Shown here: one piece after another, positions 747-17,524 of the stretch
Numbering within the stretch: position 1 is the first letter of the stretch
Layout of the letters: each line of letters opens with the position of its first letter
From: a virus
Strand: one strand, 5' to 3'
Length of the DNA: 20,414 nucleotides
IMG/VR virus record: IMGVR_UViG_3300031951_001496
Coordinates: 1 to 20,414 of that record
The notes under the pieces: generated by a model
Told to the model about the DNA's origin: nothing
What the model saw: only the letters and a program-made list of their open reading frames with translations
Databases searched by the model: none
Position numbers and translations under genes: made by a program

Positions 747-1119
747 GGTGCGCCCCTCTCGGCGTATTTGCTCCTCGCCGCCACGCAGCGGCCTTGCTGC
801 GGGCGCACTCCGCTGGCTCACTGCGTCGCTCAAGATAGTGCCGCTCGCGCACCACCTTGGCTCGCTCCTCAACCCACGGCGACAGTGCCAGCCCTGCCAG
901 CGACGCTGCGTCATCCTCTGGCGTCGGGGCCGGTGCGTCGCAGTGCGACGGGTGGAGACGCTTCGGCAGCTTGTACCGCTGAGCCCACTTGCTGATCGTG
1001 CTGTTGGTGACGCCAAACCGCTCAGCCATCTCGGGGATCGTGGCACCTGCTGCCCACAGTTGGAACAGCAGGGCCACGTCCGCACGGCGGTGAGTTTTGG
1101 CAACTTCGCTCGCCCTCAT
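733..1119 (-). CDS. Helix-turn-helix protein, 128 aa
   Basis: Residues about 14-52 form a resolvase/Tc-type helix-turn-helix: VALLFQLWAAGATIPEMAER, then FGVTNSTISKWAQRYKLP. The pattern of an initial helix, GxTxxEMAxxFGV and SxxxISKW is typical of small phage HTH proteins and of terminase-small-subunit-like DNA binders. Residues about 77-128 are rich in Arg, Ala and Glu (SPWVEERAKVVRERHYLERR), with no catalytic signature. The start codon overlaps the sliding clamp stop in an ATGA, so translation is probably coupled. It could be an operon regulator or a DNA packaging/replication accessory. The position inside the replication operon favours the former, but this is inference. Confidence 0.75.
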   Translation of the reverse strand: MRASEVAKTHRRADVALLFQLWAAGATIPEMAERFGVTNSTISKWAQRYKLPKRLHPSHCDAPAPTPEDDAASLAGLALSPWVEERAKVVRERHYLERRSEPAECARSKAAAWRRGANTPRGAHHDKA

Positions 1120-2222
1120 GCGTCCTCCGCCAATGGCATGATCACGCCACGGTACTCGCCGCAGACGAGCGTGACGGCACCGCCAGGCCCAGTGGTGTGC
1201 ACGAGCACGTTGGGCTCTTCGTCAGCCGGCAAGCCCGTCAGGTAGTCCCTGACGAAGTGCGGGTCCATCTTCACGCGGCACGCCGTCCCGGACTCGACGA
1301 GCTCGCACCGCACCTTGCTCTCGCCGTACTCGCTCGACTTCGCCGACAGCGTCAGCGACGAGCCGAAGTCGTACAGCACGCCCTTGCTCTGCTCGCTGGC
1401 CACGACGGCCGCCGCCCTGGTCGCCGCCAGCAGCTCGCCACGATCGACGGCGTGCGGCTCATTGGCGGGCTCAGGGAACACGTCACGCCACTTTGGAAAG
1501 CGGCCGTCCACGAGCCGGGCCGTCAGCACGCCACCGTCAAAACTGAAGACCACGTCGCTGGCCGTCGCCTCAATCTGCACGCTGCCTTCGCTCCGCTCAC
1601 TCAGCGTTGCTGCGAAGAGAGCGGCCACCACGGGCACGAGCGTAAGTGAACTGTCTGTGTCCTGGTCGTTTGACGTAGCAACAGCAGACAGCCGCCTCCC
1701 GTCCGTGCCAACAAACGTCGGATCCTCTCCACGCACAACCTCGATTAGCACTGCGCCCAGTGCGTACCTGCTCGACTCGCGGTCACAGGCGTATGCCACG
1801 GATCGCACGGCACGCACGAACTGATCCGCCGGCAGCCGGCAGACCGGCTTGGCGTCCGTAGACTCCCACGTCGGGAACTCAGCAACGTCTTCGCACGGCA
1901 GCGTCCACGAGCCACGCCCGCACTTCACCTTGACGCTGGCGCCGCTCGGCGTGAGCGTCACCGTGTCATCGTGCTTGCACGCCCGCAGAATCGCCAGCAG
2001 CCGATCCGCCGGCAGCAGAAACGGCTCGCAGTGCTCGCCAATCTCGCGGTCAATGCGGATCTCCAGATTGGTGCCCGTGATGAGCCCGGCGCCGATGCGG
2101 ACGTTGCCGAGAATCGGCTTCGGCCCACGGCTGCTCACCACCCTCGTCACGTCCATCATCGCCGCCAGCAGTTCGCCGGCAGCCATGCTCAAGCCCGTCC
2201 GCTCCTTCGTTGCCACATTCAT
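1116..2222 (-). CDS. dnaN: DNA polymerase III beta subunit (sliding clamp), phage-encoded
   Basis: The product is the ring-shaped processivity clamp that tethers DNA polymerase to DNA. At 368 residues it matches the usual bacterial length of about 366-370 and covers three clamp domains. Recognisable family patterns are RYALGAVLIEV (about 152-162) followed by FVGTDGRRLSAV (170-181), DGRFPKWRDVFP (239-250), and a C-terminal GVIMPL (359-364) where host clamps have VVMPM. The start ATG overlaps the stop of the 37-aa membrane peptide (ATGA). Sequence outside these motifs is divergent, so this is a phage version and not a recent copy of a host gene. It probably replaces or supplements the host clamp during phage replication. 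The clamp identity is secure; why the phage needs its own is inferred. Confidence 0.93.
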   Translation of the reverse strand: MNVATKERTGLSMAAGELLAAMMDVTRVVSSRGPKPILGNVRIGAGLITGTNLEIRIDREIGEHCEPFLLPADRLLAILRACKHDDTVTLTPSGASVKVKCGRGSWTLPCEDVAEFPTWESTDAKPVCRLPADQFVRAVRSVAYACDRESSRYALGAVLIEVVRGEDPTFVGTDGRRLSAVATSNDQDTDSSLTLVPVVAALFAATLSERSEGSVQIEATASDVVFSFDGGVLTARLVDGRFPKWRDVFPEPANEPHAVDRGELLAATRAAAVVASEQSKGVLYDFGSSLTLSAKSSEYGESKVRCELVESGTACRVKMDPHFVRDYLTGLPADEEPNVLVHTTGPGGAVTLVCGEYRGVIMPLAEDA

Positions 2223-3663: not shown

Positions 3664-4563
3664 TTACTTGACCGATACGGAGTTGGCTTCGGCCGCTAGG
3701 CAGTCGCCGTGGCACCGCTGCGGATAGCAGTGGCACACGAGAACCTTTCCGGTGAGCTCGCCGGCGTCTATGCGTTCCGTAATGGAAGGCTTTCGGACGA
3801 TGTAGTGCCTCTCGTACGAGTCGCACACGGCGTCCCTGTCGCCGTCTTCTTCAAGAATGAACGGGTTTCCGTAACGGGTGCCCCGGTCAATCCTGACGGC
3901 AAGCCCTTGACGCTCAGCCCAGCAAATGAGGTTCTTGTCGGCCGCTGCGTTGGCTACTACGGTGATTCCGTCCTTCACCTGGGCCTGTCGGTCGCGCTCG
4001 TCTTGCCGCCAATCGTCTGTCGGCTTCTTCGCCACCTCACGCTTGGCATCCTGTAGCGTGATCTTTCCAGCCTTCAGTCGCTCAAACACCTCTGGAGCTT
4101 CGGTCTTTACCTTCTTGGCGTCGGAGACGTAGCGGTCATTTACGCCGACTGACTTGGCAGCTTCCTCGCGGGCCTTTGCCTTTTCAATAGGTGGAAGTTT
4201 TTCCACCTTCTGAGCCTGTGGCTGGTTGCGCTTCGCCTGCTCTGCCTGCCTGCGCTTTGCGTCAGCCGCGAAGTGCGGCTCGAGCTCGGCGGCCACGGCC
4301 GCGAGCGAGCCCTTGTTCATGTGCCGACGCCGATCATTCAGCGACACGGCGAACGCGGTAGGCTCGTCGCCTGTGTATTCCTTGGTCTTCGGTTCGACGC
4401 CTGCGATCTTGCAGGCGGCCCACCGATTGCGGCCGTCAAGAATCTTGCCCTCGTACAGCCACACTGGCACCAGCTGGCCATTCTTCTGAATGTCTTCCGC
4501 TAGTTCGTGGAGTTTGGCCTCGTCCATCATTGGCCATACGTCAGCAATAGGATGATTCTTCAT
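3664..4563 (-). CDS. ParB-like N-terminal domain fused to DUF4326, 299 aa
   Basis: Residues 1-80 resemble the ParB/sulfiredoxin-type fold: NHPIADVWPMMDEAKLHELA, then DIQKNGQLVPVWLYEGKILD, then GRNRWAACKIAGVEP in the box-II-like position. Residues about 130-178 form a KorB/ParB-type HTH (KSVGVNDRYVSDAKKVKTEA, then LKAGKITLQDAKREV). Residues about 200-295 match DUF4326: RYGNPF at 230-235 and VCHCYPQRCHGDCLA at 276-290, with three conserved Cys and two His. DUF4326 has no established biochemical role that I can name. The stop TAA abuts the AAGGAG of the next gene. The start overlaps the stop of the HNH reading frame (ATGA). A role in recognising or processing DNA is inferred from the ParB and HTH parts. 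Confidence 0.85.
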   Translation of the reverse strand: MKNHPIADVWPMMDEAKLHELAEDIQKNGQLVPVWLYEGKILDGRNRWAACKIAGVEPKTKEYTGDEPTAFAVSLNDRRRHMNKGSLAAVAAELEPHFAADAKRRQAEQAKRNQPQAQKVEKLPPIEKAKAREEAAKSVGVNDRYVSDAKKVKTEAPEVFERLKAGKITLQDAKREVAKKPTDDWRQDERDRQAQVKDGITVVANAAADKNLICWAERQGLAVRIDRGTRYGNPFILEEDGDRDAVCDSYERHYIVRKPSITERIDAGELTGKVLVCHCYPQRCHGDCLAAEANSVSVK

Positions 4564-4898
4564 CTGCGGTGAATCCTTTCATGACAGGGTCGGCAAACAA
4601 GCAGGTAGTCAGAGTCCTCGTACTCCCAAGGCTCCAGATCGGCGTCGTATCTCAAGTGGTGAACAACAGTTGCTGCCCCGTTGAGGCGACACGCCTCGCA
4701 CGCAGTTCCTCGAGCGGCAAATAAGGCCAGCCGCCTGGCTTGCCATCGGCGATCGAGCAGCCTTCGAGCGTAGGTTGCGCGGTCGTTTTTTTTAGACGGT
4801 GGACGTGAACTACTACCCAAGTCGTGCGGTGCTGGCTCGTATTTCCAACCAACAGCCACTTGGTGTAGTCGATGTCCTCGATGCGCATGTTGGCCCAC
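4560..4898 (-). CDS. HNH endonuclease domain, probably made by -1 frameshift from the upstream gene
   Basis: The convincing part is the last 75 codons, downstream of 4787. ARRLLDRRWQARRLALFAAR is followed by two CxxC pairs (CEAC, CRPC) enclosing VVHHLRYD, WEYEDSDYLLV and a final HERIH. This is the HNH nuclease fold with a structural zinc. The first 37 codons, from a GTG at 4898, overlap the upstream gene, have no ribosome binding site and do not resemble the family, so they are probably not translated in this frame. No ATG lies between them and the domain; one TTG exists without a good RBS. A -1 slip on the A8 run at 4793-4786 would attach the domain to the upstream protein as a 300-residue fusion. 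Confidence 0.7.
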   Translation of the reverse strand: MGQHAHRGHRLHQVAVGWKYEPAPHDLGSSSRPPSKKNDRATYARRLLDRRWQARRLALFAARGTACEACRLNGAATVVHHLRYDADLEPWEYEDSDYLLVCRPCHERIHRR

Positions 4899-5461
4899 AA
4901 CTGAGATGCTTTTGACGGCTCATTTCTCAACCATTCGTATGCGCCGTGCTCGCACAGTTGATGCTCGTGTTTCTTGCCAGCCTCGCTCCTCCACCAGATG
5001 TACGGCTTCTGCGGAGTCTCGCACTGGGCCATTACCCAATCTGGAGACTCCTTGAAGTCTCTGACTTCCATGCCGTATCCGATTCCAGTAGCAGACTGTC
5101 GAATGATCGCAATACTGCGACGCATGCGATTCAAATAATCGATTGGATCCTCGTTACCGCAACTCAAAGCGCAGGCGTCAAGAATCAGACGCTTCTCGCT
5201 TGATGACTCAACCTTGCCAACAACGTCAACTTCGTCGAGCCTCAGACTCTCCTCCCTGCTGTCCTTACTTGTGAAGTGTGCCGCACACGACACGCGATCC
5301 CACACGCTCACTTTCGCCATCATTGGTCCGAAGTCTGCGTAGATCCTGCACAGTCCGTGATCGTCTGCGAGAACGATTGCGCACTGGACAGCGCGTCCGT
5401 CCTTGCTCCTGTTTGGAGCACCAACACCCAGCACAACACCTGTGATCACGTCGCTCTTCAT
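4652..5461 (-). CDS. Unknown early protein, 269 aa in zero frame (300 aa if frameshifted)
   Basis: I chose the ATG at 5461, five bases after GGAGG; the TTG at 5473 lies inside that box. The start overlaps the stop of the winged-helix gene (ATGA). Residues 1-90 are rich in beta-type sequence (VITGVVLGVGAPNRSKDGRA, CRIYADFGPMMAKVSVWDRV) and might form an OB-like barrel. Residues about 170-225 (CEHGAYEWLRNEPSKASQLW, then KWLLVGNTSQHRTTWVVVHV) look like a conserved domain that I cannot name. After residue 225 (HRLKK) the zero frame continues for 44 residues, overlapping the HNH frame, with sequence that looks unselected. This suggests the functional product may continue in the -1 frame. Five Cys and several His are scattered without a clear metal motif. 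Confidence 0.72.
   Translation of the reverse strand: MKSDVITGVVLGVGAPNRSKDGRAVQCAIVLADDHGLCRIYADFGPMMAKVSVWDRVSCAAHFTSKDSREESLRLDEVDVVGKVESSSEKRLILDACALSCGNEDPIDYLNRMRRSIAIIRQSATGIGYGMEVRDFKESPDWVMAQCETPQKPYIWWRSEAGKKHEHQLCEHGAYEWLRNEPSKASQLWANMRIEDIDYTKWLLVGNTSQHRTTWVVVHVHRLKKTTAQPTLEGCSIADGKPGGWPYLPLEELRARRVASTGQQLLFTT
4787..4793 (-). other. Candidate -1 ribosomal frameshift heptamer A_AAA_AAA
   Basis: On the coding strand the zero frame reads CTA AAA AAA ACG. Seven consecutive A in X_XXY_YYZ phase allow both lysine tRNAs to re-pair after a one-base backward slip. Reading then continues AAC GAC CGC, exactly the frame of the HNH domain. The run is 8 A in total (4793-4786). A GAGGCG-TGT-CGCCTC hairpin and a GCCAG-GCGG-CTGGC hairpin lie further downstream, but neither sits at the usual 5-9 base spacing. 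Confidence 0.55.
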
Positions 5462-5793
5462 GATTTCCTCCAAATCACCGCCATCCGTCCGCTGCTCGTC
5501 CGCCTGGTCCCGTCCTGCACGACGAGCCCTCGCCGTGCCAACTCGATCCGCCGTGGCCGCTCGGTGCTCGGATTCATGCCAAGCCCCGTGGCAATCTCCT
5601 CGTCAGTGCTCGGCCCGTGCTCTTCGAGGTACGCCAGCACGCGCCGCTGCATGGCGTTGAGCGTGTTGCCGTCGAGCGAGTCGGCCGCAGCGGCAGACGT
5701 GATCGAGCCGTGGACGCTGGGGGCACGGGCCGCGAACAGCGGCAGATCAGCCATCCCGCGGCCGATGTCGATGGCGGGGTTGAAGTCGGTCAT
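5458..5793 (-). CDS. Winged-helix DNA-binding protein, 111 aa
   Basis: The start is the ATG at 5793-5791, five bases after GAGGAGG; the frame runs further upstream but overlaps the HNH gene. Residues 1-40 are Ala/Ser rich and contain ADLPLFAARAP. Residues about 44-110 form a winged helix: LNAMQRRVLAYLEEHGPSTD, then EEIATGLGMNPSTERPRRIE and LARRGLVVQDGTRRTSSGR. The last part is the wing, followed by AVIWRK. This pattern of a MarR/LexA-like HTH with an RPRRIEL recognition helix is common in phage early operons. It overlaps the upstream HNH gene and the downstream gene by ATGA each. DNA binding is well supported; its target is unknown. Confidence 0.8.
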   Translation of the reverse strand: MTDFNPAIDIGRGMADLPLFAARAPSVHGSITSAAAADSLDGNTLNAMQRRVLAYLEEHGPSTDEEIATGLGMNPSTERPRRIELARRGLVVQDGTRRTSSGRMAVIWRKS

Positions 5794-6305
5794 CGACGCC
5801 TCCTCGCGCGAATCCAGAACACGCCGGAATAGTCCTTTGGCTGAGACTCTTGCTGGCGACTCTCCCGCTTTCGCCGCCACGCATCAGTGCGCGCGCTGCA
5901 GTCGCCTCGCCTGTGCGGTTTGTGCTGCTTTCGCTGCGTGTAGAACGCAATCAGCCACCGCTGTTTCGGGTCTTTCTTGCGGGCCAGTTCAAACATCATT
6001 GTGTTTGCTTGTGCCAGCGACCCCTTTGATCCATCTACGTTTATCTCAATCAGTTCGTGGCACTTATGGCACAACGGAGCAAGATGAAGGCGATGCACTC
6101 CAAGCAAAGTGGCTGAGTCGTACTTGACGTGATGCACGACCTGCGGCTTGCTGTCGCAGCAAATACATTCGCTGTAGTCAGCAAACACTTGCGACCTAAG
6201 TGCACGCCACTCATCGGACTTTAGGTATTGCTTGTAGGTGCGATACCCAAACGAGCGAAGTAGTTCGTTCCTAACGTCGTAGACAAATGCGTGCTTTTCT
6301 TTCAT
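5790..6305 (-). CDS. HNH endonuclease family protein, 171 aa
   Basis: The start is the ATG at 6305-6303, with AAGGAG seven bases upstream. Residues about 20-90 form the HNH domain. YRTYKQYLKSDEWRALRSQV is the usual lead-in helix. It is followed by CICC (47-50), VVHHVKYD (56-63) and HLAPLCHKCHELI (74-86), which give two metal-binding Cys pairs around the catalytic His region. The C-terminal third is strongly basic (QRKQHKPHRRG, AWRRKRESRQ, FWIRARRRR) and probably binds nucleic acid. It ends in an ATGA overlap with the winged-helix gene. In phages such proteins may be free-standing homing nucleases or packaging/replication nucleases. Its fixed place in a tightly overlapped operon argues for a phage function and against a recent homing insertion. 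Confidence 0.8.
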   Translation of the reverse strand: MKEKHAFVYDVRNELLRSFGYRTYKQYLKSDEWRALRSQVFADYSECICCDSKPQVVHHVKYDSATLLGVHRLHLAPLCHKCHELIEINVDGSKGSLAQANTMMFELARKKDPKQRWLIAFYTQRKQHKPHRRGDCSARTDAWRRKRESRQQESQPKDYSGVFWIRARRRR

Positions 6306-6340
6306 CGCCAGACTCCTTTCTGCTTCGCCCATGGCGGGGC

Positions 6341-6556
6341 TTAGTCGCTGTTCCTTCCTCGTGCCACGTGATCCGGCGGCCTCCAGATCGGATGCACCTT
6401 TGAACGCAGTGCGTTGAACTGGCGCACTGCGTCCTCCGCAGCGGCTCGGTTCGCAGCCTCGCTCCGCTTGAGTGCATCGATCGTCGCTGCCATGCCGGGC
6501 TGCTCTTCGTGACGCAGCCACTCAATGACATCGTCCACAGTTGGGAACCTCCTCAT
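6341..6556 (-). CDS. Small helical protein, 71 aa
   Basis: The start ATG at 6556 overlaps the stop of the 56-aa gene (ATGA) and lies eight bases after GAGGAGG. The protein starts MRRFPTVDDVIEWLRHEEQP and continues with a long Ala-rich helix (TIDALKRSEAANRAAAEDAV, then RQFNALRSKV) that could pair as a coiled coil. It ends with IWRPPDHVARGRNSD. No motif identifies a function. Its position three genes after recT and just before the HNH gene makes it part of the recombination/replication operon. A rival frame at 6271-6531 covers the same bases but lacks a ribosome binding site. Confidence 0.65.
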   Translation of the reverse strand: MRRFPTVDDVIEWLRHEEQPGMAATIDALKRSEAANRAAAEDAVRQFNALRSKVHPIWRPPDHVARGRNSD

Positions 6557-6889: not shown

Positions 6890-7735
6890 TCACGACACGG
6901 CCTCCGTGCTGGCGTGCTCGAACTCGGTGCCGGTGTCATCGCCGATCAGCATCTCGACCCGGTGGTGCAGCAGCTGCACGAGCGTGTCGTGCTGGGCCTG
7001 CGTAAAGATCCCGTCCGCCAGCCGCTGGACCATGAGCGTCCGCAGCTTCTCGGCACCAGCAATGCTGTCGCACTTGCTCACCGCCAGGCGGGCCTTGCCA
7101 ACCGGATCGTCGGCGGGCTTGGCGGGCTCCGGCTTGAGCTTGACAACCGTGGGCTCGTCGAACTTCGGCCGCACCACCACGGGCTCGGGCTGCGTCGGGT
7201 AGTCCTGCGCCTCCTCGGCAGTCACGAGCCCCTTGAGCACGTCGGGGAAGGCGTCACGCAGGGCGAATCCTCGGGCACGCAGCTGCAGCATCCGCTTGGG
7301 GTACTGCGTCCACGGGCCACTCTTGCCCCACAGCCCGGCCTTCTTGGCGTCAGCCACCGAGAACCGTGCCACGGTCGGCGTTTCGTAGCCACGCCGCTTG
7401 GCGGTGCAGGTCGCCACCATCTGCTCGCCGTCGCCCTCGATGGACTCGCGGACGTACTCGCAGACCGGGCTGGCCATCGCCACAGCCAAGGCAGCATCAC
7501 CCCAGATCGCCGGGCGGCCGTTGATGCAGGCGATGTTCTGCAGGCTCTGCATCGGGCTCAGGCCGATCTCGCTGCCGTGCTGGATCGCCAGCAGGCAGCT
7601 CTCGGGCTTGCCCTTGAAGTCCTTGGGGGCGAAGTCGCTCTTCGCCACCATCTGGGCGAACGCCATGGCCTCGCCCATCGTCTGCAGTGCCAGCCCCCTG
7701 GCCGGCGTCGTGTTGGTGCTGATCTCCGTGCTCAT
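6890..7735 (-). CDS. recT: RecT-family single-strand annealing protein, 281 aa
   Basis: RecT-type annealases pair complementary single strands during phage recombination. The family core is clear. LLAIQHGSEIGLSPMQSLQN (48-67) is followed by IACINGRPAIWGDAALAVAM, then FSVADAKKAGLWGKSGPWTQ and YPKRMLQLRARGFALRDAFP (145-164), ending with DVLKGLVTAEEAQDYP. The C-terminal 90 residues are Pro/Lys rich and then helical, a variable tail often used for partner binding. The ATG follows AAAGGA by six bases. It is the first gene of the leftward early operon. No RecE-type or lambda-Exo-type 5' exonuclease is seen next to it; the nearby nucleases are HNH proteins. The identification is secure. Confidence 0.95.
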   Translation of the reverse strand: MSTEISTNTTPARGLALQTMGEAMAFAQMVAKSDFAPKDFKGKPESCLLAIQHGSEIGLSPMQSLQNIACINGRPAIWGDAALAVAMASPVCEYVRESIEGDGEQMVATCTAKRRGYETPTVARFSVADAKKAGLWGKSGPWTQYPKRMLQLRARGFALRDAFPDVLKGLVTAEEAQDYPTQPEPVVVRPKFDEPTVVKLKPEPAKPADDPVGKARLAVSKCDSIAGAEKLRTLMVQRLADGIFTQAQHDTLVQLLHHRVEMLIGDDTGTEFEHASTEAVS

Positions 7736-16863: not shown

Positions 16864-17142
16864 TCATTTGCCGTCCAAGTCCCGTTTCATTTGCTGCAGT
16901 ACGTCGAGCATTTGCGTGCGGTGCTGCGGCGGCTTTTCCAATGGGATGAAGTCTGCTGGGGACGGCGATTGACCACGTCGTGTGTGAGGAGCCAAAACCA
17001 CGCTGGCGAGAAGTCCTGTCTGTGCCCACGAGCTATCAAGCGGCTGAAAATACCGTGCATAGGCAAGCCACTCACTCAGCTCGCGGCTGTCCATCTCTCG
17101 CTCAATCTGCCCAACAGTCATCCGCAGATGGCTCGCTAGCAT
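16864..17142 (-). CDS. Tail assembly chaperone T-like part, expressed by frameshift
   Basis: The sequence MTVGQIEREMDSRELSEWLA followed by YARYFQPLDSSWAQTGLLAS matches the phage tail T family (lambda gpT-like, with SSxELxEWxAY). The family homology begins before the first ATG. The ten in-frame codons upstream read NARPSRRFLF, and RPxRxFL is the normal beginning of such domains. None of these codons can start translation. The part is therefore most likely translated as a C-terminal extension of the gene at 17171-17524 through a +1 shift at its stop (CTT TAA C), giving a 219-residue fusion. It binds the tape measure during tail assembly in known systems. Its stop lies one base before the tape measure start. 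Confidence 0.82.
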   Translation of the reverse strand: MLASHLRMTVGQIEREMDSRELSEWLAYARYFQPLDSSWAQTGLLASVVLAPHTRRGQSPSPADFIPLEKPPQHRTQMLDVLQQMKRDLDGK

Positions 17143-17169
17143 GAAGAGAAATCGACGCGACGGCCTCGC

Positions 17170-17176
17170 GTTAAAG
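17170..17176 (-). other. Candidate +1 frameshift site CTT_TAA_C
   Basis: The zero-frame chaperone ends GAG CTT TAA and is followed by C. A leucine tRNA could slip from CTT to TTT, after which AAC GCG AGG CCG continues in the T frame. The layout is the same as the prfB (RF2) recoding site CUU UGA C with the other RF2 stop codon. A GGCGAG lies directly before CTT, but it is only a weak Shine-Dalgarno-like match. Confidence 0.55.
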
Positions 17177-17524
17177 CTCGCCGGCGAGTTCGACTACGTC
17201 CGCCTCCGTGAGTTTGTTGTGCCTCTGTGCCACGTCAAACAGTTCTCCCATGACTGCACCATCTAGCGACGCAACTTCGTTGATCTCGTTGTCTTGCCAG
17301 ATTCGCACGCCATGCTCGTCGCACAAGGTGCGCACCAAGTAGAACGCTCGGAAGTTCTTAAACTTCTCGACGCCTTTGCTGCGAATGTCGATCCACGCGA
17401 GCTCCCAATCATCACGCTCGCCGACACTCAACACGCGGACGAAAACATCTATGTTCCACTCACGCACGTGCACCTTGAGAGGCTTTCGCACGCTGGCCGA
17501 TTTGATCTGCTCGCGTAGTCCCAT
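17171..17524 (-). CDS. Tail assembly chaperone G-like protein, 117 aa
   Basis: The ATG at 17524 follows the tail-tube-like gene by three bases. The sequence begins MGLREQIKSASVRKPLKVHV and continues with WNIDVFVRVLSVGERDDWEL, then FYLVRTLCDEHGVRIWQDNE. It closes with LDGAVMGELFDVAQRHNKLT and ADVVELAGEL. The pattern of a modified-surface strand, VRxLxxxExD.W and VRxLCDExG is typical of the first tail assembly chaperone encoded just before the tape measure in many siphophages. In those phages part of the product is extended by frameshifting. Here the downstream T frame is +1 relative to this one. Confidence 0.82.
   Translation of the reverse strand: MGLREQIKSASVRKPLKVHVREWNIDVFVRVLSVGERDDWELAWIDIRSKGVEKFKNFRAFYLVRTLCDEHGVRIWQDNEINEVASLDGAVMGELFDVAQRHNKLTEADVVELAGEL

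Follow-up and report, generated by a model that had tools for sequence, protein, structure and literature searches.

In Escherichia coli dnaX, a site of the A_AAA_AAG class gives rise to two products, tau and gamma, which share their N-terminus and belong to a replication context, and the shift there shortens the product. In the IS3 family, a DNA-binding part (OrfA) is made either alone or fused (OrfAB) to a catalytic domain encoded in the -1 frame. Both layouts are similar to that of the phage gene described here, which lies on the minus strand of IMG/VR virus record IMGVR_UViG_3300031951_001496 (the whole 20,414-nucleotide stretch analyzed, positions 1 to 20,414 of the record, is called the window) and which probably encodes two proteins through programmed -1 ribosomal frameshifting. 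The gene has the site class, the shared N-terminus of two products and the replication context in common with dnaX, but its shift would swap a short tail for a nuclease domain. The likeness to the IS3 family extends to the slip site, as the same heptamer class, A_AAA_AAG, is given with a -1 shift for that family in the excerpted text of PMC4066793. Unlike the IS3 genes, however, the phage gene has an HNH domain instead of a transposase domain, lies in a DNA-metabolism cluster, has a conserved zero-frame end and shows no conserved stimulator. The phage tail assembly chaperone G/GT likewise combines a conserved phage -1 frameshift with an extended second product, in some cases without known stimulators, whereas it is a morphogenesis gene with no nuclease; as far as the excerpts of PMC5009743 go, the phage frameshifting described is mainly that of tail and coat genes.

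The zero-frame open reading frame begins at an ATG with GGAGG just 5' of it, and its first 225 residues, the body, would be common to both products (Table 1). A reading made earlier from the sequence only had proposed that a -1 frameshift joins this upstream gene to an HNH domain, and the proposal is now supported by a slip site, two frames and an arrangement that are conserved in 21 sequences. The features it relied on were also found. The run of eight A (A8) holds A_AAA_AAA in the phase required for a -1 shift, at 4793-4787; a shift on this heptamer would yield a fusion of 225 + 75 = 300 residues with the HNH domain at its end; the expected Cys and His residues, four of each, are present in the -1 frame and do not vary among the 21 HNH-bearing sequences; and the HNH frame of the window has no credible start, offering only GTG, GTG and TTG at -103, -64 and -25 from the slip codon. 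Outcomes named beforehand as refuting were looked for in the 22 complete sequences described below, and neither a run of 9 A nor the HNH domain as a separate gene was seen in any of them. An unbroken single-frame fusion was likewise looked for and seen in none.

The relatives were collected by viral-contig scans and one genome-contig scan, which together gave 22 distinct complete sequences, the window included. Body identity to the window was 35-74% in the others, with L064 the lowest. An HNH domain in the -1 frame was present in 21 of the 22; the exception, L064, reads CTA AAA GCC at the site and has no HNH frame, while its zero-frame tail is retained together with both motifs discussed below. 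One relative, L024, lies on a bacterial contig and is probably a misbinned phage contig, because among 299 searched genomes of its family the only match was the metagenome-assembled genome itself. A phage collection gave no match to the window protein (E limit 0.01) or to L064 (E limit 10), and L023 and L056 matched there at E 4 or worse only.

An in-phase heptamer A_AAA_AA[A/G] stands at the same place in all 21 HNH-bearing sequences and is absent from L064. Exactly 8 A are present in 19 of the 22 sequences, the first A closing a CTA or TTA codon. The sites of L088 (CTA AAA AAG) and L090 (CAA AAA AAG) contain runs of only 6 and 7 A, respectively, and the CAA of L090 means that the A preceding the lysine codons was kept even after a change from Leu to Gln. 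Cut copies fit this pattern as far as they are readable, as L071 has CTA AAA AAG and L011 terminates within the A run. When the bodies of the 19 A8 sequences were compared, 35 columns had a single conserved amino acid with a degenerate codon; only three of these had an invariant third base, and they were exactly the three slip-site codons. Third positions in the 40 codons 5' of the site differed in 53% of pairwise comparisons (17 sequences). By these counts, the slip site is conserved beyond chance.

The frame under selection changes at the same point. Selection ratios (N, nonsynonymous; S, synonymous) were obtained with a simple counting script and a codon bootstrap on 17 sequences. Upstream of the site, the -1 frame gave an NN/NS ratio of 1.39 (95% 1.0-2.06), which corresponds to no protein selection; downstream, its ratios were 0.41 and 0.34 where the two frames overlap and 0.14 and 0.31 past the zero-frame stop. 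Judged by these ratios, coding changes frame at the slip site. In all 21 HNH-bearing sequences, the protein read there carries CxxC, HH, CxxCH and, last, a single H, residues which we take to have zinc-binding and active-site roles. It matches phrog_144 at an expectation value (E) of 2.5e-7 and 10 more PHROG families described as HNH endonuclease at E < 0.1. The Pfam HNH score is 16 bits, under its cut-off of 21.4; NCBIfam gave no match of weight, and the HNH profile found no solved structure at E up to 1. The part is described as a predicted HNH endonuclease with inferred nuclease activity. When the window (4563-5461) was compared with L023, L026, L027 and L028, the HNH parts were 78-82% identical and the OB bodies 53-56%. 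This excess suggests either recombinational exchange of the HNH end or tighter constraint on it.

The AlphaFold2 model of the 225-residue body, built from 23 rows, had a predicted local distance difference test score (pLDDT) of 91.5 and a predicted template modeling score (pTM) of 0.90. In this model, the N-terminal domain is an OB fold: residues ~1-99 align with OB folds at Z 7.5-10.2 among the 50 best rows, where a Z below 8 is weak by itself. The neighbors include RecO (10.2), Rim1 (8.3), RPA (8.2) and PriB (8.1), as well as SSB. Aspartyl-tRNA synthetases and CusF score similarly, and the shared fold does not show function. The second half has an OB-like strand order and is probably a second OB fold; the best whole-length Foldseek matches of the body are multi-OB proteins (LEF-3, RPA and HIN domains) with modest scores. 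The modeled body most likely binds single-stranded DNA. In the model, the slip site coincides with the end of its last strand (215-224). No solved structure matched the body profile better than E 0.36, and no Pfam or NCBIfam family matched the zero-frame protein, which matches phrog_25907, a family of unknown function, at E 1e-5.

The sequence-only reading had regarded the 44 residues that the zero frame adds beyond the site as seemingly unselected. This proved wrong, as selection is visible at WPY and over at least the second half of this tail. When sites without effect on the -1 protein were compared, the zero-frame NS/SS ratio was 0.42 (0.29-0.71) in the overlap versus 0.95 (0.55-1.45) beyond the zero-frame stop, and 0.22 (0.11-0.36) in the second half of the overlap. 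WPY is kept in 20 of the 22 sequences, L064 included, and is replaced by YPY in L010 and WPL in L037; among the 21 HNH-bearing sequences, the zero-frame W, P and Y are retained in 20, 21 and 20, respectively. The -1 codons lying over them vary in amino acid and keep the third base. Over W, the codon encodes Leu, Met or Val with a third-base G in 20 of 21 (7 are Met, which allows no alternative); over P, Ala or Ser with C in 21 of 21; and over Y, it encodes Leu, Ile or Val and ends in A in 20 of 21, although no Leu codons are used less often in these genes than CTA and TTA (23 and 10 of 330). Near the C-terminus, 19 of the 22 sequences have Qxx[LM]F (QQLLF, QGQLF, QHLLF, QGLLF, QTLMF or QPLLF) and the remaining three have QxxFxF (QKLFSF once and QMQFNF twice). 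The -1 codon over this Q may encode Ala, Ser, Pro or Thr and always ends in A (19 of 19 in the column), as does the Q-covering codon of L056 and L066, which the alignment offsets by one column. Thus, the residues W, P, Y, Q and F of the zero frame are preserved by -1 wobble bases. With the HNH protein kept fixed and its synonymous codons left free, chance would produce the WPY seen (WPL in L037) with a probability of 0.01-0.04 per lineage, and the Q motif with 0.015-0.024 (7 divergent sequences). The usual zero-frame stop is lost in L004, where the frame continues, and L088 and L090 likewise extend beyond the motif. In the 269-residue model, pLDDT was below 50 over most of residues 216-269, and the tail is probably flexible. 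On this comparative evidence the zero-frame tail is a second conserved C-terminus; the gene therefore seems to have two alternative products.

From these results, programmed -1 ribosomal frameshifting, yielding two proteins from one phage gene, is considered the explanation of the locus with a probability of about 0.8; we infer slippage itself, its rate and its ribosomal nature from the conserved site and frames. Ribosomes that do not slip would add the flexible tail of ~44 residues, which has WPY and the end motif Qxx[LM]F and may serve to attach the protein to a sliding clamp of phage or host origin. A step back by one base on the pair of lysine codons, AAA AAA or AAA AAG, where the last body strand ends, would append the HNH domain in place of the tail. 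How often ribosomes slip would then decide how much of the protein is a clamp-docked DNA-binding form and how much is a nuclease directed by the shared body. The full version of this scheme, a dual-coded switch in phage replication or recombination with a clamp-docking tail and an HNH domain in two frames of the same DNA, slippage setting their ratio and L064 retaining only the first product, is put forward tentatively, at somewhat less than even odds.

Several observations weigh against these readings. No conserved stimulator was found among local hairpins (22 sequences), in an alignment fold (9 sequences) or as a sequence like that of Shine-Dalgarno (SD; 22 sequences). Strong hairpins after the site were limited to two sequences, L066 (z -5.3, 11 base pairs) and L088 (z -3.5), with z between -1.6 and +1.7 in the remaining 20; the alignment fold showed almost no covariation (3 of 109 pairs); and an SD-like stimulator 6-17 bases upstream was present in 1 of 22 (L037). 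In the available portion of PMC5009743, however, not every accepted frameshift case has a stimulator. In the case of the tail, the first 22 overlap codons gave an NS/SS of 0.65 (0.39-1.38), and neither zero-frame measure excludes 1 there; few SS sites (2.1) stand behind the zero-frame NS/SS; and the zero-frame NN/SN test was set aside because it also fell below 1 in the control past the zero-frame stop (0.43). A merely open zero frame is expected by chance with a probability of 0.12-0.75 per lineage. The clamp-binding consensus is given as Q-L-x-L-F in PMC4549789 and QL(S/D)LF in PMC9690074, both of which, in the passages available, call it weak and variable; Leu at motif position 2 is absent in all 22 sequences, and QxxFxF (3 of 22) is further from the clamp consensus. 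Of 21 records, many of which are fragments, 6 gave a PF02768 (clamp) match, above the cut-off in 4, and binding by the tail would therefore often need a host clamp. Moreover, four relatives (L010, L027, L024 and L090) have a fairly credible start of their own for the HNH frame.

These starts belong to an alternative in which the HNH protein is translated from an internal NTG at a conserved Trp codon, -25 from the slip codon. NTG stands there in all 22 sequences, because the zero frame has TGG (Trp) at this place; among the HNH-bearing ones, 16 of 21 have ATG, GTG or TTG. An SD-like tetramer lies at -16 to -3 from the NTG in 10 of 22, any start codon being counted, and within 3-12 bases of an ATG, GTG or TTG at -25 in 6 of 21 HNH-bearing sequences; the best cases are L010 (ATG, GAGG at 5), L027 (ATG, AGGA at 4), and L024 and L090 (GTG, AGGA at 4). 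Against this, 5 of 21 have CTG, the -1 frame of L006 lacks ATG, GTG and TTG throughout the stretch between the upstream stop and a point ~15 codons beyond the slip, and the only candidates of L088 (GTG +14 and TTG +35) lie downstream of the slip codon with no SD-like sequence. None of the three candidates in the window has an SD-like sequence 3-12 bases upstream, the -1 frame before the slip is under no protein selection (1.39), and the invariant slip codons would be left unexplained. Judged from these comparisons, no such start is common to the whole family, and the alternative is considered very unlikely. Still less credence, next to none, is given to a sequencing error or a decaying fused gene, for which there is nothing beyond what one sequence alone would permit. 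The identical frame relation recurs in 21 distinct sequences on separate contigs, whose sample numbers differ except for L027 and L056, with invariant HNH residues and -1 ratios well under 1.

The remaining alternatives concern how the frames are joined and what the tail does. In transcriptional slippage, the polymerase would add an A within A8, so that some mRNA encodes a one-frame fusion and the proteins are identical to those of ribosomal frameshifting. The presence of exactly 8 A in 19 of 22 sequences agrees with this, as does the second Lys codon, which is never AAG there although these genes use AAG more often than AAA for Lys (155 versus 77); that a conserved stimulator was not found points the same way. 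However, the two distant members L088 and L090 favor ribosomal slippage: their heptamer is A_AAA_AAG, and their A runs reach just 6 and 7 bases. The cut copy L071 has this heptamer too. The excerpted PMC4066793 describes A_AA.A_AA.G as a highly efficient ribosomal motif in E. coli, and transcriptional slippage is regarded as unlikely. Phase variation, in which insertion or deletion of an A within the A8 tract of the DNA toggles the fusion in the population, draws on the raised mutation rate possible in homopolymer runs (mentioned in the same excerpts of PMC4066793), but all 19 A8 sequences have exactly 8, none 7 or 9, the AAG of L088 and L090 breaks the pure tract, and both frames appear to be selected simultaneously; it is highly improbable. 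A closer competitor accepts the frameshift as proposed and gives the tail a purpose other than the clamp, for example docking the RecT or the ParB-like protein encoded nearby, or self-regulation. WPY is about as conserved as the Q motif and lies outside the clamp consensus in the available parts of PMC4549789 and PMC9690074, and the ParB-like gene is next in 21 of 22 loci by eye, L015 being the exception. The Qxx[LM]F near the C-terminus, on the other hand, resembles the weak consensus seen in the excerpts of the same two papers, and the window phage encodes a clamp. A non-clamp purpose is given close to an even chance.

As for the relatives and origin of the gene, phrog_25907 is related to the shared body across most of its length, and its 279-position profile stops soon after the equivalent of the slip site; its members therefore seem to lack both endings. 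Stand-alone phage HNH proteins (L057-L060) and phrog_144 are of the same HNH kind, with 36-40% identity and an L-E-P-W-E-Y stretch. In L057-L060, by contrast, the domain has its own open frame, and the zero-frame equivalent closes 12-18 bases after the match start; in L061, the fifth and least similar stand-alone HNH (35%), that equivalent is open for ~250 bases. In the likely order of events, an OB gene would first have come to extend into an HNH gene, a use would then have arisen for the overlapping tail, and the HNH domain would later have been lost in L064 while the tail stayed. If the frameshift reading holds, the gene would represent frameshifting in DNA metabolism, where a short, perhaps docking tail is exchanged for a nuclease domain. 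The exchange would sit inside an overlap with both frames selected, providing a directly testable two-product system. As most of the HNH frames lack a credible start codon, gene-calling programs may overlook the enzyme or place it wrongly. Among the matches listed by literature searches combining frameshifting with phage, HNH, nuclease or DNA-binding, titles and abstract openings gave no description of such a gene; searches on clamp and frameshift, A AAA AAG and transposase, and T7 gene 5.5 gave nothing relevant.

Table 1. Positions of the frameshift gene, its parts and its neighbors in the window.
Feature	Position	Strand	Basis or remarks
Zero-frame open reading frame	5461-4652	minus	269 codons + stop
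Shared N-terminal body, 225 residues	4787..5461	minus	Folded model, OB-fold neighbors, phrog_25907 match
A8 run	4793-4786	minus	Contains slippery heptamer A_AAA_AAA (4793-4787); codons CTA AAA AAA ACG
Predicted HNH nuclease domain, -1 frame, 75 residues after the slip	4563..4787	minus	Stop 4562-4560
Zero-frame tail, 44 residues	4655..4786	minus	Stop 4654-4652; overlaps the HNH frame
Zero-frame WPY, role not assigned	4721..4729	minus	Kept in 20/22 sequences
Zero-frame QQLLF near the C-terminus, candidate sliding-clamp-binding motif	4661..4675	minus	Motif conservation and published consensus
ParB-like N-terminal part + DUF4326, next gene	3664..4563	minus	PF14216 E 6.4e-17; TIGR00180 E 9.2e-5 (below cut-off); phrog_12047 E 2.8e-7
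DNA polymerase III beta clamp, possible tail partner	1116..2222	minus	PF02767 E 1.3e-14; PF00712 E 1e-9; PF02768 below cut-off; phrog_947 (processivity factor) E 3.4e-49
RecT-like single-stranded DNA annealing protein, same gene cluster	6890..7735	minus	phrog_561 E 4.4e-53; PF03837 E 4.1e-9
Second HNH protein	5790-6521	minus	phrog_144 E 3.7e-7; DUF968 below cut-off; ~0.3 kb upstream of the OB/HNH gene
73-amino-acid protein, little beyond a LexA-type DNA-binding domain	2613-2834	minus	PF01726 E 1.9e-20; near the beta clamp

The ATG of the next gene overlaps the HNH stop in the window (ATGA, 4563-4560), and a start/stop overlap is found in many relatives; shifted ribosomes may therefore also feed translation of the ParB-like gene. 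In L015 (4671-4910), the ParB-like gene is not directly next, the HNH frame is two codons longer, and another small open reading frame begins there. RecT was found in 7 of 16 records, many of which are fragments. The window also encodes an integrase and a tape-measure protein. Two adjoining small open reading frames (16864-17524, minus strand) lie upstream of the tape-measure gene, in the usual place of a tail assembly chaperone frameshift pair.

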